Below are positions 25,406 through 29,598 of a DNA stretch of 64,000 nucleotides, piece after piece. Within the stretch, counting starts at the first letter, position 1. Every line of letters starts with the position of its first letter. The position numbers were made by a program, and so were the translations under genes. This DNA is from an uncultured Acidobacteriota bacterium (GTDB lineage Bacteria; Acidobacteriota; Terriglobia; Terriglobales; Acidobacteriaceae): contig CAILAC010000012.1 of assembly GCA_903832055.1 (NCBI GenBank), positions 272,991 through 336,990 of the forward strand, read 5' to 3'. The notes under the pieces were generated by a model. It was given only the letters and a program-made list of their open reading frames with translations, ran no database searches and was not told the origin of the DNA.

Positions 25406-28348
25406 TTACTCTGCAGGCAGAGCGGCTAAGGCTGCCTGTGCTTTGGTAAGGAGCTGGCGGTTTTCGCTCTCCTGCTTTTTGAGGCCCTCGACGATGGCGG
25501 CGGGGGCTTTGGCGAGGAAGGCTTCGTTGCCGAGCTGGCGTTCTGCGGAGGCGAGGCCTTTTTCGAGTTTGGCAATTTCTTTGGTGAGGCGTTCGCGCTC
25601 GGCGGGGATGTCGATGGTGCGCTCATAAGAGAGCACGACTTCAAAGTTGGGCTGTTGAATTAAGTTACCCAAATTCAAGAGACGTATTCTTGCCTCCTCG
25701 TCTATTTCGCCGAACTGGATTTCCGAGACGCTCGTGAGCTTTCGAATGACGTCAACATTCTGCTGAAAGGTTGCTCGAACGTCATTACGGCCTTCGCTTG
25801 GGATTATAGTGATGGGGATAAATTCCTTTTGAGGAACATCGGCCCTCTGCCGCCAATTCCGCACCACATTTACCAGATTTTGAAGGTGAAACATGCCTTC
25901 GTAAACACCGTCTGTTTCAGCCTTCTGGTCAATGCGAATTGCTAACTCTCTTTCAATTGCCGGATAGCTGGCCAATGCAATTGAACGAGAGGGGGGATTA
26001 CCGTCGTAAACTGCATGCCAAATCTCTTCCGTGAGGAAGGGCATGAAAGGAGATAGGAGACGGAGAGACGACTCAAAAACGCTCAGCAGTGTGGTAAGTG
26101 CCGCACCGACCGTTGCCTTGTCTGCCGTTTCAGAGAAATCGAGATGGGGTTTGACTATCTCTAGATACCAATCGCAAAACAATCCCCAGAAGAATTGGTA
26201 AATATTGCTGGCTGCATTGTCATATCGATAGTCCGCCAAATCTTCATTGACTAGCATTGCGGTTCTGTTGAATTGAGCCACGATCCAGCGGGCTTCCAGA
26301 GGGTCGGTCTCGGCGGCGGTCGGCATGCCGCCGAGGGCGGCGGGATCGACGTGAATGCCGATTTCGGCGGCGCGGTCGACGTTCATGAAAAGGAAGCGGG
26401 CGGCGTTCCAGATTTTGTTGGCAAACGCGCGGTAGCCTTCGGTTCTGGCTTCGTTGAAGGCGATGTCGGTGCCTGGCGATGCCATTGAGGCGAGCGTGAA
26501 GCGAACCGCATCCGTCCCGTATTTCTTGACGATTTCAATGGGATCGATGACGTTGCCCTTGGTTTTGGACATCTTTTCGCGGTTGGCGTCGCGGACCAGG
26601 GCGTGGATGTAGACCTCGCGGAATGGTACGGACTCGGCGAGCGGGCGCGGCGAGCCATCCGGCATGGGCACATCTGCCGCGAACCAGCAGCCCATCATGA
26701 TCATGCGGGCGACCCAGAAGAAGAGGATGTCGAAGCCGGTGACGAGCAGGCTGGTGGGGTAGAAAGTGGTGAAGTCGGGAGAAACCCCGGCACCCGCATT
26801 TTTCAAAAAGGGCCAGCCGAAGACACTGACGGGCAGCAGGCCGGAGGAGAACCAGGTGTCGAGGACGTCGGTTTCCTGGGTGATTTCACCGCTCTGGCAG
26901 TGGGAGCAGCGCGTCGGATCAGACTTCGCACCGGGCTCTGGCACGGTGATCTGGTGGCAGATTTCGCAGTGCCAGGCGGGGATGCGGTGGCCCCACCAGA
27001 GTTGGCGAGAGATGCACCAGTCGTGGATGTTTTCCATCCAGTTGAGGTAGGTCTTTTTGTAGTTGTCGGGCGTGAAGCGGACGTGGCCCTCTTCAACGGC
27101 CTGGATAGCACGGGCCGCGATGGAGGAACCAAACCCGGAGGGTGTCTTGTTGACAGCAATGAACCATTGCGTCGAGAGGCGCGGCTCGATTACGTCTTTG
27201 CTGCGGTCGCAGCGGCCGACGGAGAGCTTATGGTCGTGGATGGTGCCGAGAAGGCCGAGGGCTTCGAGGTCTTCAAGGACGCGCTTGCGGGCGGCGTAGC
27301 GCTCGAGGCCGGCGTAGGGGCCGCCGTTCGCGTTGATGTGGGCGCGGTCGTCCATCACGTTGATTGAGGGCAGGTTGTGGCGCTGGCCCAGGGCGAAGTC
27401 GTTGGGGTCGTGGGCAGGCGTGATCTTGACCGCGCCGGTGCCAAAGTCGCGGCTGACCCAGGGGTCAAGGACGATGGGGATTTCGCGATTGAGCAGTGGC
27501 AGCAGGAGCTTTTTGCCGTGGAGGTGCAGGTAGCGCTCGTCCTCGGGGTGGATGGCTACGGCGACGTCGCCGAGCATGGTTTCGGGGCGCGTGGTGGCGA
27601 TTGTGAGCCACCCCAACGACGAAGACCTGTCGTTGGGGGCCCCGGATAGCTCGCCCTCAGAGCCTACGACGGGGTAGCGAATCTCCCAGAGCTTGCCGAG
27701 GGTCTCTTCGTGGACGACCTCGAGGTCGCTGACGGCGGTCTGGCAACTGGGGCACCAGTTCACGACATAGGCACCGCGGTAGATGAGGCCCTGCGCGTAG
27801 AGGCGGGTGAAGGCTTCGCGGACGGCGATGGAGAGGTCGGCGTCCATGGTGAAGTATTCGCGGGACCAGTCGACGGAGGCGCCGAGGCGCTTCATCTGGT
27901 CGAGGATAGCTTTGCCGTATTGGTCGCGCCACTGCCACACGCGAGCTTCGAAGGCCTGGCGACCGAGGGCCTGGCGCGAGGTGCCTTCGGAGGCGAGCTG
28001 GCGCTCGACCATCATCTGCGTGGCGATGCCGGCGTGGTCGGTGCCGGGGACCCAGAGGGTTTTGTCGGCAGTTCCAGCACTGCGCATGCGGTGCCAGCGA
28101 GTGAGGATGTCCATCTCGGTCTGGTTGAGCATGTGGCCCATGTGCAGGCGGCCGGTGACGTTGGGGGGCGGCAGCAGAATCGTGAAGGCCTGCGCGGCGG
28201 GCGAATCGCCTTCGGCAGGCTTCGAGCCGGTTTCCGTAGGTGTGGCTTGGGCGAAGAGGTTTTCGCGGACCCAGTATTCGGCCCATTTATCTTCAATGGC
28301 GGCGGGGTCGTAGGCTTTGGGGAGGTCCATTTTGGAAAGCTGGGGCAT
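25406..28348 (-). CDS. valS: Valine--tRNA ligase
   Basis: A 980-residue class Ia aminoacyl-tRNA synthetase. Motifs in order: the HIGH-type HMGH (69-72), NWCPSC (zinc-finger-like), the editing-domain core ATTRPETML (from residue 251), and KMSKT (592-596). The anticodon-binding domain follows, and the C-terminal coiled coil (KEIAKLEKGLASAERQL) closes the protein. Two oddities: residues about 235-248, just before TTRPET, are encoded by a palindromic repeat (27611-27638), and the segment for residues about 689-903 is far AT-richer than the rest. Despite these the frame is intact and all catalytic motifs are present, so the enzyme should be functional. An internal Met at residue 7 is an alternative start. 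Confidence 0.97.
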   Translation of the reverse strand: MPQLSKMDLPKAYDPAAIEDKWAEYWVRENLFAQATPTETGSKPAEGDSPAAQAFTILLPPPNVTGRLHMGHMLNQTEMDILTRWHRMRSAGTADKTLWVPGTDHAGIATQMMVERQLASEGTSRQALGRQAFEARVWQWRDQYGKAILDQMKRLGASVDWSREYFTMDADLSIAVREAFTRLYAQGLIYRGAYVVNWCPSCQTAVSDLEVVHEETLGKLWEIRYPVVGSEGELSGAPNDRSSSLGWLTIATTRPETMLGDVAVAIHPEDERYLHLHGKKLLLPLLNREIPIVLDPWVSRDFGTGAVKITPAHDPNDFALGQRHNLPSINVMDDRAHINANGGPYAGLERYAARKRVLEDLEALGLLGTIHDHKLSVGRCDRSKDVIEPRLSTQWFIAVNKTPSGFGSSIAARAIQAVEEGHVRFTPDNYKKTYLNWMENIHDWCISRQLWWGHRIPAWHCEICHQITVPEPGAKSDPTRCSHCQSGEITQETDVLDTWFSSGLLPVSVFGWPFLKNAGAGVSPDFTTFYPTSLLVTGFDILFFWVARMIMMGCWFAADVPMPDGSPRPLAESVPFREVYIHALVRDANREKMSKTKGNVIDPIEIVKKYGTDAVRFTLASMASPGTDIAFNEARTEGYRAFANKIWNAARFLFMNVDRAAEIGIHVDPAALGGMPTAAETDPLEARWIVAQFNRTAMLVNEDLADYRYDNAASNIYQFFWGLFCDWYLEIVKPHLDFSETADKATVGAALTTLLSVFESSLRLLSPFMPFLTEEIWHAVYDGNPPSRSIALASYPAIERELAIRIDQKAETDGVYEGMFHLQNLVNVVRNWRQRADVPQKEFIPITIIPSEGRNDVRATFQQNVDVIRKLTSVSEIQFGEIDEEARIRLLNLGNLIQQPNFEVVLSYERTIDIPAERERLTKEIAKLEKGLASAERQLGNEAFLAKAPAAIVEGLKKQESENRQLLTKAQAALAALPAE
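27611..27638. repeat. Palindromic repeat element, copy C, inside valS
   Basis: A perfect 10-bp inverted repeat, CCCCAACGAC (27611-27620) and GTCGTTGGGG (27629-27638), with an 8-nt loop. The right side continues as GCCCCGG and the left is preceded by CCA, resembling the flanks of copies A and B. It is read in frame by valS on the minus strand and adds about 14 residues (GAPNDRSSSLGWL region) that ordinary ValRS proteins lack at this place. Confidence 0.7.
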
Positions 28349-28462: not shown

Positions 28463-28861
28463 CTACGGCGTGATCAGGGGCACGGATGGGAAATAGGTCC
28501 GGTAGCGGCTGTCATCACGGGTAAGAATTGGGCAAGCCAGGACTGAGGCGTGAGCTCCGATAAAGAAGTCGCCCAGAACGCTGGTCCTGGTTCCGCCCTT
28601 TTTGCGGTAGAGGAGGAAGGCTTTGCCGGCGAGGAATGCAGCTTCATTGGGGATTTCGAGGAGCGAGATTCCTAAATCGGTCAGGGCCTTCTCAACAACT
28701 AGATGAGAAGGAAAGCGCACCGAGGCTTCTGCGAAGACAACCGTGTTGATAGCAAGTTCATCCGTGGCGGCCAGGATTTGGAGGGCCTTGGTCGATCCGG
28801 GAGCCCAATGAGGGTCGTTTTGCCAGATGTCCAACAGGATATTGCTATCGATGAGGACCAC
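28463..28861 (-). CDS. PIN-domain toxin (VapC-like)
   Basis: A 132-residue PIN-domain protein, the usual size for VapC toxins, which cleave tRNA or rRNA. Acidic metal-binding positions are visible: D in MVLIDSNILLDIW, E in VVFAEASVRF, D in LGDFFIGAHA, and D in TRDDSRY. The GTG start at 28861 overlaps the TAG stop of the upstream AbrB-type gene, the arrangement expected for a type II toxin-antitoxin pair with the antitoxin first. The pair sits between valS and an AT-rich stretch, in an accessory position. Confidence 0.88.
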   Translation of the reverse strand: MVLIDSNILLDIWQNDPHWAPGSTKALQILAATDELAINTVVFAEASVRFPSHLVVEKALTDLGISLLEIPNEAAFLAGKAFLLYRKKGGTRTSVLGDFFIGAHASVLACPILTRDDSRYRTYFPSVPLITP

Positions 28862-29103
28862 TAGTCTTCGCCACGGAGCAGGTTCATTAACGCGTCTGTT
28901 CCACCTGGATATGCGGGAAGGATGCCGCGCGCTTTCTTGAAGCGATCCGGATCAGCGTTCTTGGCGATTCTTTCGGGGCGAAGAATCAACTCGCCCTTTT
29001 CGTTGGCATCCAGGACCAATTTGCTGCCCGGCACCAATCCGAGAACCTCCCGGACATGTTCGTCCAAGCTAATCTGACCTTTTTCATCGACGGTAAGGGT
29101 CAT
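28861..29103 (-). CDS. AbrB/MazE-like antitoxin
   Basis: An 80-residue protein starting MTLTVDEKGQISLDEHVREVL, the swapped-hairpin AbrB/SpoVT fold (consensus: a strand, KGQI, then a helix with LGL.PG..L). The C-terminal half (AKNADPDRFKKARGILP) is the flexible toxin-binding tail. It should bind its own promoter and neutralise the downstream PIN protein. The frame is open to 29295, but ATG 29103 marks the beginning of the family homology and the upstream residues look non-coding. Confidence 0.87.
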   Translation of the reverse strand: MTLTVDEKGQISLDEHVREVLGLVPGSKLVLDANEKGELILRPERIAKNADPDRFKKARGILPAYPGGTDALMNLLRGED

Positions 29104-29598
29104 GGGTTGGCTCCGGTGCTCTGACTGGTCTGATTGTAATACTGATTGGAAATGGCAGATGGCGCAATCAGCGAATTGACCATCTCTCTGGCGTAAGGTC
29201 GCGGAAGTTGAGTTCAGCGATGACAAGGGGCGGACGGACGGGACCGCTGCGCTGACGCAGAGCGATTCGGTGTGCTTGCATCCTGCGCCGCTCAAAGTGG
29301 TCGCATGACGCGGACTCTACGCTCCCAGTTCTCAAAGTCGAGACCTTGGGCGCCCGGCACACGCCTCTAGTCAGATAAGCATTTCGTTACGCAGCACTCT
29401 ATAGGGGTTCGTATGGGTGACATTACGAAACTCCTACGCGCGCGTGTACGCGCCTCCCACGACGCTTGTATAACGTGTGCTATCGGAATCCTCTACGCGG
29501 GCGTACGTAATACGCGTATAAGACATTTAAAATAAACAACTTAACTCATTGACAAGTGCTTCGATTCCGGCTATTTTGAGTTCAGTTTGGAGGCCCTA
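29104..29598. other. 495-bp AT-richer intergenic region with clustered TACGCG motifs
   Basis: It holds the upstream regions of the antitoxin (minus strand) and of the orphan gene (plus strand). No supported gene is seen in it. Four copies of TACGCG occur within 82 bp (29435, 29447, 29494, 29511), with the perfect palindrome ATACGCGTAT at 29510-29519 and CGTACG next to it. These alternating purine-pyrimidine stretches could bind a regulator or adopt unusual DNA structure. A consensus promoter follows at 29549-29577. Confidence 0.6.
29549..29577 (+). promoter_or_regulatory. Sigma-70-type promoter of the orphan gene
   Basis: TTGACA (29549-29554) is followed after exactly 17 bp by TATTTT (29572-29577). 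The expected start of transcription near 29584 lies just before TTTGGAGG and ATG 29599, giving a leader of about 15 nt. The match to the consensus -35 box is exact, which is rare in this GC-rich sequence. Confidence 0.65.

Follow-up and report, generated by a model that had tools for sequence, protein, structure and literature searches.

The valS locus and its insert

The window (the whole stretch of DNA analysed, 64,000 nucleotides) carries on its minus strand valS (25406..28348), whose reading frame encodes a valyl-tRNA synthetase (ValRS) of 980 aa and matches the ValRS chain 1gax (E = 8.5e-188). Inside this host gene, and in the same orientation, lies a 38-nt repeat core, CCGGGGCCCCCAACGACAGGTCTTCGTCGTTGGGGTGG (27608..27645, minus strand), matched by a covariance model with 68.2 bits at 27603-27646; the limits of the core were taken from the anatomy and the flank comparison across many copies (see below). 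The palindrome described in the earlier note occupies exactly positions 27611-27638, with 10-bp arms (CCCCAACGAC, 27611..27620, and GTCGTTGGGG, 27629..27638, both as read on the plus strand) and an 8-nt spacer. In the protein the element corresponds to 13 codons, S235-W247 (SGAPNDRSSSLGW; 27608..27646, minus strand), which are missing in relatives without the element. Three residues past the insert, the conserved ATTRPET motif (residues 251-257; 27578..27598, minus strand), which we take to have a role in editing by ValRS, is unchanged in the alignment. Adjoining valS, a PIN-domain, VapC-type toxin-like ORF following an AbrB/MazE-like ORF was recognized by eye (28463-29104, minus strand).

ValRS was searched in 41 genomes and the loci of 29 relatives were compared, 28 of which cover the region before ATTRPET. 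The alignment identified S235-W247 as an insertion: the residues are missing in 27 of these 28 relatives, so that they are not a stretch shared by relatives with divergent DNA, and the only relative with them (L005 of genome G002, 79% identical) has the same DNA. The earlier note had proposed about 14 extra residues, S235-L248; the insertion itself was borne out, but its size is 13 residues and L248 belongs to the host. The window genome (G000) and G002 have in common the codons TCC GGG GCC CCC AAC GAC AGG TCT TCG TCG TTG GGG TGG, and L006 and L009 have no codons at this place in the codon-by-codon alignment. The 980-aa frame is open across the insert, i.e., the palindromic element sits in an essential gene with the frame kept, as had been noted. 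Exceptional DNA conservation of the valS copy between G000 and G002 was considered and rejected (99 of 2511 ungapped 38-nt windows of both genes are identical).

In relatives without the element, the loop before ATTRPET differs in length and sequence, and ordinary loop-length variation together with a chance palindrome would be in keeping with this. However, a search for the arms with a free spacer and up to three mismatches gave one match in the window and none in 100 shuffles of it, and near-identical 38-nt sequences occur in many genes and genomes; a chance palindrome is ruled out by these shuffles and dispersed copies, and we give this explanation practically no weight.

Aligned to ValRS chain 1gax, the insert falls in a gap; the short chains 1wka and 1wk9, also of ValRS, match from residue 246 on. 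In the AlphaFold2 model of ValRS (46 sequences; mean pLDDT, 90.3), the insert site was predicted as a low-confidence, disordered loop between two strands (211-227 and 247-252), with pLDDT below 50 at residues 234-237 and 242-244; the modelled insert thus fits a flexible loop.

The covariance model, run on 59 of 80 valS loci, also found copies in the valS of L166 (the G002 record, two copies), L193, L184 and L167, all of them inside the open valS frame; that of the window included, valS was the target of about five insertion events. The loop of the window was hit twice: the ValRS of L184 has an insert of exactly 14 residues, SHPTDEDLSAGTPV, at this loop, read from the opposite strand of the element. 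The closeness of the insert to ATTRPET and the independent insert of L184, a second lineage, in the same loop could be read as selection of the insert for altered threonine editing. We consider this very improbable, since relatives lacking the element differ in the length and sequence of this loop, the model shows the insert as disordered, the L184 copy has the opposite orientation and a different peptide, and the element is also found in many unrelated proteins. The suggestion in the earlier note that valine/threonine editing may be altered found no support, the insert lying in a length-variable loop between strands, with much of it at pLDDT below 50 and with ATTRPET intact.

Dispersal and anatomy of the repeat

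In the window, the covariance model found only the valS place, once per strand, at E values up to 10; none of the intergenic hairpins of the window is thus a member of the family, and the proposed likeness to two of them was not confirmed. In the window genome, three places, valS included, lie within three mismatches of the exact sequence, and the model (R2, built from 13 aligned copies) gave 10 matches at E values up to 0.1, so that the palindrome does occur elsewhere in the genome. The sequence CCAACGAC...GTCGTTGG was found in 6 of 19 genomes of relatives, and R2, at the same E limit of 0.1, matched 12 of 21 genomes, among them G002 with 15 matches and G022 with 36. The copies lie both between genes and in frame inside genes, in agreement with the proposal of a multi-copy, protein-coding repeat in Acidobacteria. 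Wider searches gave R2 matches in at least 94 of 300 Acidobacteriaceae genomes (at least 22 of 79 genera) and in at least 26 of 396 genomes sampled from the phylum, at least 21 of them in Acidobacteriaceae and at least 5 in other families; these are lower bounds, the family search having scored 21 candidates per genome and the phylum search 16. A pattern blind to stem pairing was found in 52 of the 300 family genomes, with none for the reversed control among the matches listed. The genome comparison covers one genome per species.

Two further observations were made in the course of the searches. G026 and G027, which belong to another family of the order, gave 12 and 23 weaker matches, mostly of 47 and 44 nt, possibly a sister family of repeats. 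In IMG/VR, the exact pattern of the element was found in 22 stretches of 20 viral contigs (L362-L383), several with the same flanks and many outside convincing genes; phages may carry the element.

The sample for anatomy, flanks and stem consisted of copies from the fetched loci only, with three odd-length copies dropped. Of its 140 distinct copies, 128 have the 38-nt core, and 109 of these cores are distinct. Their consensus is CCGGGGYCCCC nnn GAC AGGTCTTC GTC n'n'n' GGGGTGG, i.e., a hairpin with a 10-bp stem starting CCCC/GGGG, an 8-nt loop, and asymmetric ends, CCGGGG and GGTGG. Stops are lacking in all six frames in 82 of the 109 distinct cores, versus 33% of shuffled cores. Because model hits favour pairing, the stem test was repeated with a pattern ignoring the n positions; among the 102 distinct sequences so obtained (part of the matches listed), 89 pair at all three variable positions when G-T is counted. 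The stem covaries: the middle variable pair is Watson-Crick in 94 of 102 (shuffled mean, 33.6) and the inner pair in 96 of 102 (shuffled mean, 42.7), while the outermost pair, with 66 of 102, is hardly above the shuffles (mean, 56.8; largest, 67). At the outermost pair, G-T was seen 29 times versus A-C twice, an imbalance that gives a weak hint that the folding strand is the consensus strand as written.

Some intergenic copies are nested in other hairpin repeats, GTGCCCCATCC...GGATGGG and TTGTCATCCTGAGC...GCGAAGGATCTGC (L086, L087, L077 and L122, L123, L124, L084); the host repeat TTGTCATCCTGAGC...GCGAAGGATCTGC looks like a TGTC/CGTC-type REP.

Insertion signature and copies inside genes

Among 98 single copies whose core is 38 nt long, 9 have identical 4-nt flanks at 42-nt spacing (2000 shuffles: mean 0.66, largest 5), and in 24 the flanks agree at three or more of the four letters (shuffles: mean 6.2, largest 16). 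Over the four letters that precede the core, agreement is raised at 42-nt spacing (0.36 to 0.59), and little or not at all at 41 or 43 nt. At 42 nt the agreement runs on into the first three core letters (0.43 to 0.59), because CCG often follows the right flank; as codon structure or target preference could also cause this, the length of the duplication is uncertain. The 4-nt excess thus agrees with a target site duplication as in MITEs, clean in only 9 of 98 copies. The valS copy itself has no clean repeat, its flanks, CTAT and CTCA, agreeing at two of four letters. Among 21 pairs of adjacent copies, the spacing is 42 nt in 14 and 43 nt in 5. A core of 38 nt plus 4 nt makes 42 nt, and the frame is therefore kept, though other gains occur: 39 nt in the CP1 region of valS and in lhr (versus G002), and 45 nt in GlyQ of G290 and in UvrA of G290 and G296.

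Besides the intergenic copies, in-frame copies were found in valS, uvrA, glyQ, gltX, mutS2, holA, lhr and others. Copy-holding ORFs with Pfam matches include UvrA, a metallo-beta-lactamase fold protein, a HAD phosphatase, MutS2, a molybdopterin oxidoreductase and a Mutator transposase, the last with copies at the same site in G022 and G144. A succinate dehydrogenase/NadB-like flavoprotein ORF has three tandem copies, and further ORFs are a CysN-like GTPase, GlyQ, Lhr, a glycosyltransferase of the nucleoside phosphorylase type, HolA, RibD, GltX, DNA polymerase IV, dihydrouridine synthase, pseudouridine synthase and a biotin/lipoate ligase. Where a gene name goes further than the Pfam name, it is our interpretation, and some Pfam matches stop short of the insert (e.g. 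L114, L116). Copies also lie at a corresponding site of G000 (L079:3020) and G006 (L129:3030) in a coding sequence that we presume, by motif, to be YD-repeat (RHS)-like, the L079 ORF having no Pfam match.

Comparison of orthologues showed the copies as gains. Among 25 genomes, only the UvrA of G022 has the 14 residues PGVPNDGSSSLGWK; a different insert, of 15 residues and elsewhere in the protein, is common to G290 and G296. In GlyQ (25 genomes), an insert of 14 residues occurs only in G022, an independent one of 15 residues occurs in the same loop in G290, and G296 has 5 extra residues there; in G022, UvrA and GlyQ thus have exactly 14 extra residues each. In Lhr, 13 residues found in the window genome are missing in G002.

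The frame used was counted in 33 hand-chosen ORFs (30 with a Pfam match, two valS, and L291, for which Pfam was not searched) holding 45 copies; the number of independent events is below 45, because copies in tandem arrays or shared by relatives were counted apart. Left out of this count were, among others, L131, L079, L125, L118, L103@744, L106@7293 and L157 (no Pfam match), and L100@1344, L351, L352 and L353 despite their Pfam matches. The frame A-G-V-P-x-D-R-S-S-S-L-G-W is used in 30 of the 45 copies and its opposite-strand counterpart, H-P-x-D-x-D-x-S-x-G-T-P, in 9; of the remaining frames, two are used 4 and 2 times and two never. Hydropathy does not account for this bias; selection is a possible cause, as is the codon phase of the targets.

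The strong covariation at two stem pairs, and the orientation of 34 of the 45 copies as the gene, would also suit a hairpin kept for an RNA function (stability, processing, pausing or ribosome bypassing), with coding copies useful or skipped in translation. The sites, however, are scattered over unrelated genes and missing from orthologues, and the bias to one peptide frame suggests translation; a known RNA family was rejected, as the sole Rfam match near the valS site is sub-threshold and elsewhere (E = 4.4). Taken together, these points make an RNA role distinctly unlikely.

Movement of the element and comparison with known systems

The feature in valS probably belongs to a family of small, mobile and non-autonomous palindromes of Acidobacteriaceae, of which it is one copy. 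According to the mechanism we propose, the 38-nt unit can fold into a hairpin of 10 bp with an 8-nt loop, would insert at new places and would tend to duplicate about 4 nt of the target, with a net gain that would often be 42 nt, or 14 codons; since the unit is mostly stop-free in six frames, the reading frame would often survive. Copies in tolerant surface loops of proteins would persist, and others would stay intergenic or get lost. The valS copy would have been gained before the split of the window genome and G002, adding a flexible loop of 13 residues beside the editing domain. We infer that harmful copies are lost, that the effect on ValRS is near neutral, and that the element is moved by an enzyme supplied in trans that recognizes the hairpin.

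No mobilising enzyme was found among the Y1_Tnp loci and the ORFs around copy pairs that were examined. Around five copy pairs (L351, L352, L353, L276, L292), no consistent transposase was seen, the ORFs being ordinary genes, an IS66 transposase next to the L276 pair, and genes of IS21-type transposases in which copies lie; an autonomous element seems unlikely on these grounds. Seemingly one IS21-type transposase gene in the same-genus genomes G005, G007 and G014 (L276, L277, L282) has two copies in opposite orientation, and in G005 (L276) its reading frame differs between the two sides of one copy.

Alternatively, the repeat could be of the REP/REPIN type and travel as a hairpin of single-stranded DNA, with a REP-associated tyrosine transposase (RAYT, Y1_Tnp) as its enzyme. 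A hairpin of one strand would fit the G-T pairs (a T-rich column alone could give the same), a search of 9 genomes gave 38 matches to Y1_Tnp in 8 of them, and a copy lies next to one such gene in the window genome. To our knowledge, however, IS200/IS605-type tyrosine transposases are not expected to leave 4-nt duplications, and the consensus has no GTAG. REPs flank RAYT genes, according to the available part of the source (PMC3733652), whereas of the 30 Y1_Tnp loci compared here only one had a copy within about 1.5 kb. Membership in the RAYT/REP class was rejected on this last count, and transposition by a RAYT seems unlikely to us, though with a small share of probability. As a side observation, the copy at L248:1311-1354, with a Y1_Tnp gene at a distance of about 150 nt, is embedded in the context CATACCAGCCTGGGGC...GCCCCAGG, which recurs around a G002 copy (L089:3026) and is possibly the end of a tyrosine-transposase element.

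Returning to the non-autonomous mobile palindrome, a broader reading, to which we give somewhat less than an even chance, is that of a mobile-hairpin superfamily distinct from the GTAG/CGTC REPs. Its mostly stop-free 38 nt plus a 4-nt duplication, 42 nt in all, might be fitted to coding DNA, so that a hop would normally leave a working protein with 14 more residues; an enzyme reading folded DNA might move it, and phages might carry it between hosts. In-frame palindromes were already known in genes of Rickettsia and of some REP-rich bacteria. In the present family, copies are numerous and come from free-living soil bacteria, species differ in whether a given essential enzyme has one, the flanking repeats give a measurable signal, and the size of the unit often preserves the frame; with these features palindrome movement and protein tolerance become testable. 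It is also a warning that conserved enzymes here hold repeat-derived peptides that annotation treats as ordinary protein sequence.

For in-frame palindromes in Acidobacteria, no earlier report was found among the papers listed in searches of an open-licence literature collection. In the available part of a report on Granulicella aggregans, counts of putative palindromes are given and the present element is not described (PMC12306157), and in that of PMC3733652 Acidobacteria come up solely in connection with tyrosine transposases that have terminal inverted repeats.

Among non-autonomous MITEs, the 107-bp Correia element, ERIC and YPAL are fused in frame to host genes, and YPAL has no TA ends and targets sites in or next to dyad symmetry, as far as the available part of PMC2229807 goes. 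The present element is likewise fused in frame and probably non-autonomous, but these MITEs are about 100-200 bp, whereas it is a single 38-nt hairpin with asymmetric ends. The GTAG/CGTC REPs, as given in the same part of PMC3733652, are palindromes of 20-40 bp, some of them in uvrA, tRNA synthetase and pseudouridine synthase genes; palindrome size and in-gene sites, including these three kinds of gene, are alike. However, CGTC-tagged REPs have there a stem of 8-9 bp with AT in the first two positions and a loop of 4-5 nt, versus a 10-bp CCCC/GGGG stem and an 8-nt loop here. Neither an unpaired CGTC (or TGTC/CCTC) nor a GTAG end is present, the ends being CCGGGG and GGTGG and GTAG being absent from the consensus of the 109 distinct cores, and the copies do not as a rule flank RAYT genes. 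The likeness to the in-frame palindromic elements of Rickettsia, pointed out in the earlier note, holds for the way of working: both are intergenic as well as in frame in conserved genes, adding a peptide (available parts of PMC10969869 and PMC2229807). The Rickettsia elements are confined to Rickettsia and are 105-146 bp long (PMC2229807), and their target duplication is stated as unknown in those parts of PMC10969869 and PMC2229807. Unlike them, the present element belongs to Acidobacteriaceae, is GC-rich and 38 nt long, shows a signal of 4-nt flanking repeats and adds about 14 codons. The best reading is of a family of small mobile palindromes that works like the Rickettsia palindromic elements and the intragenic REPs but differs from both in sequence.
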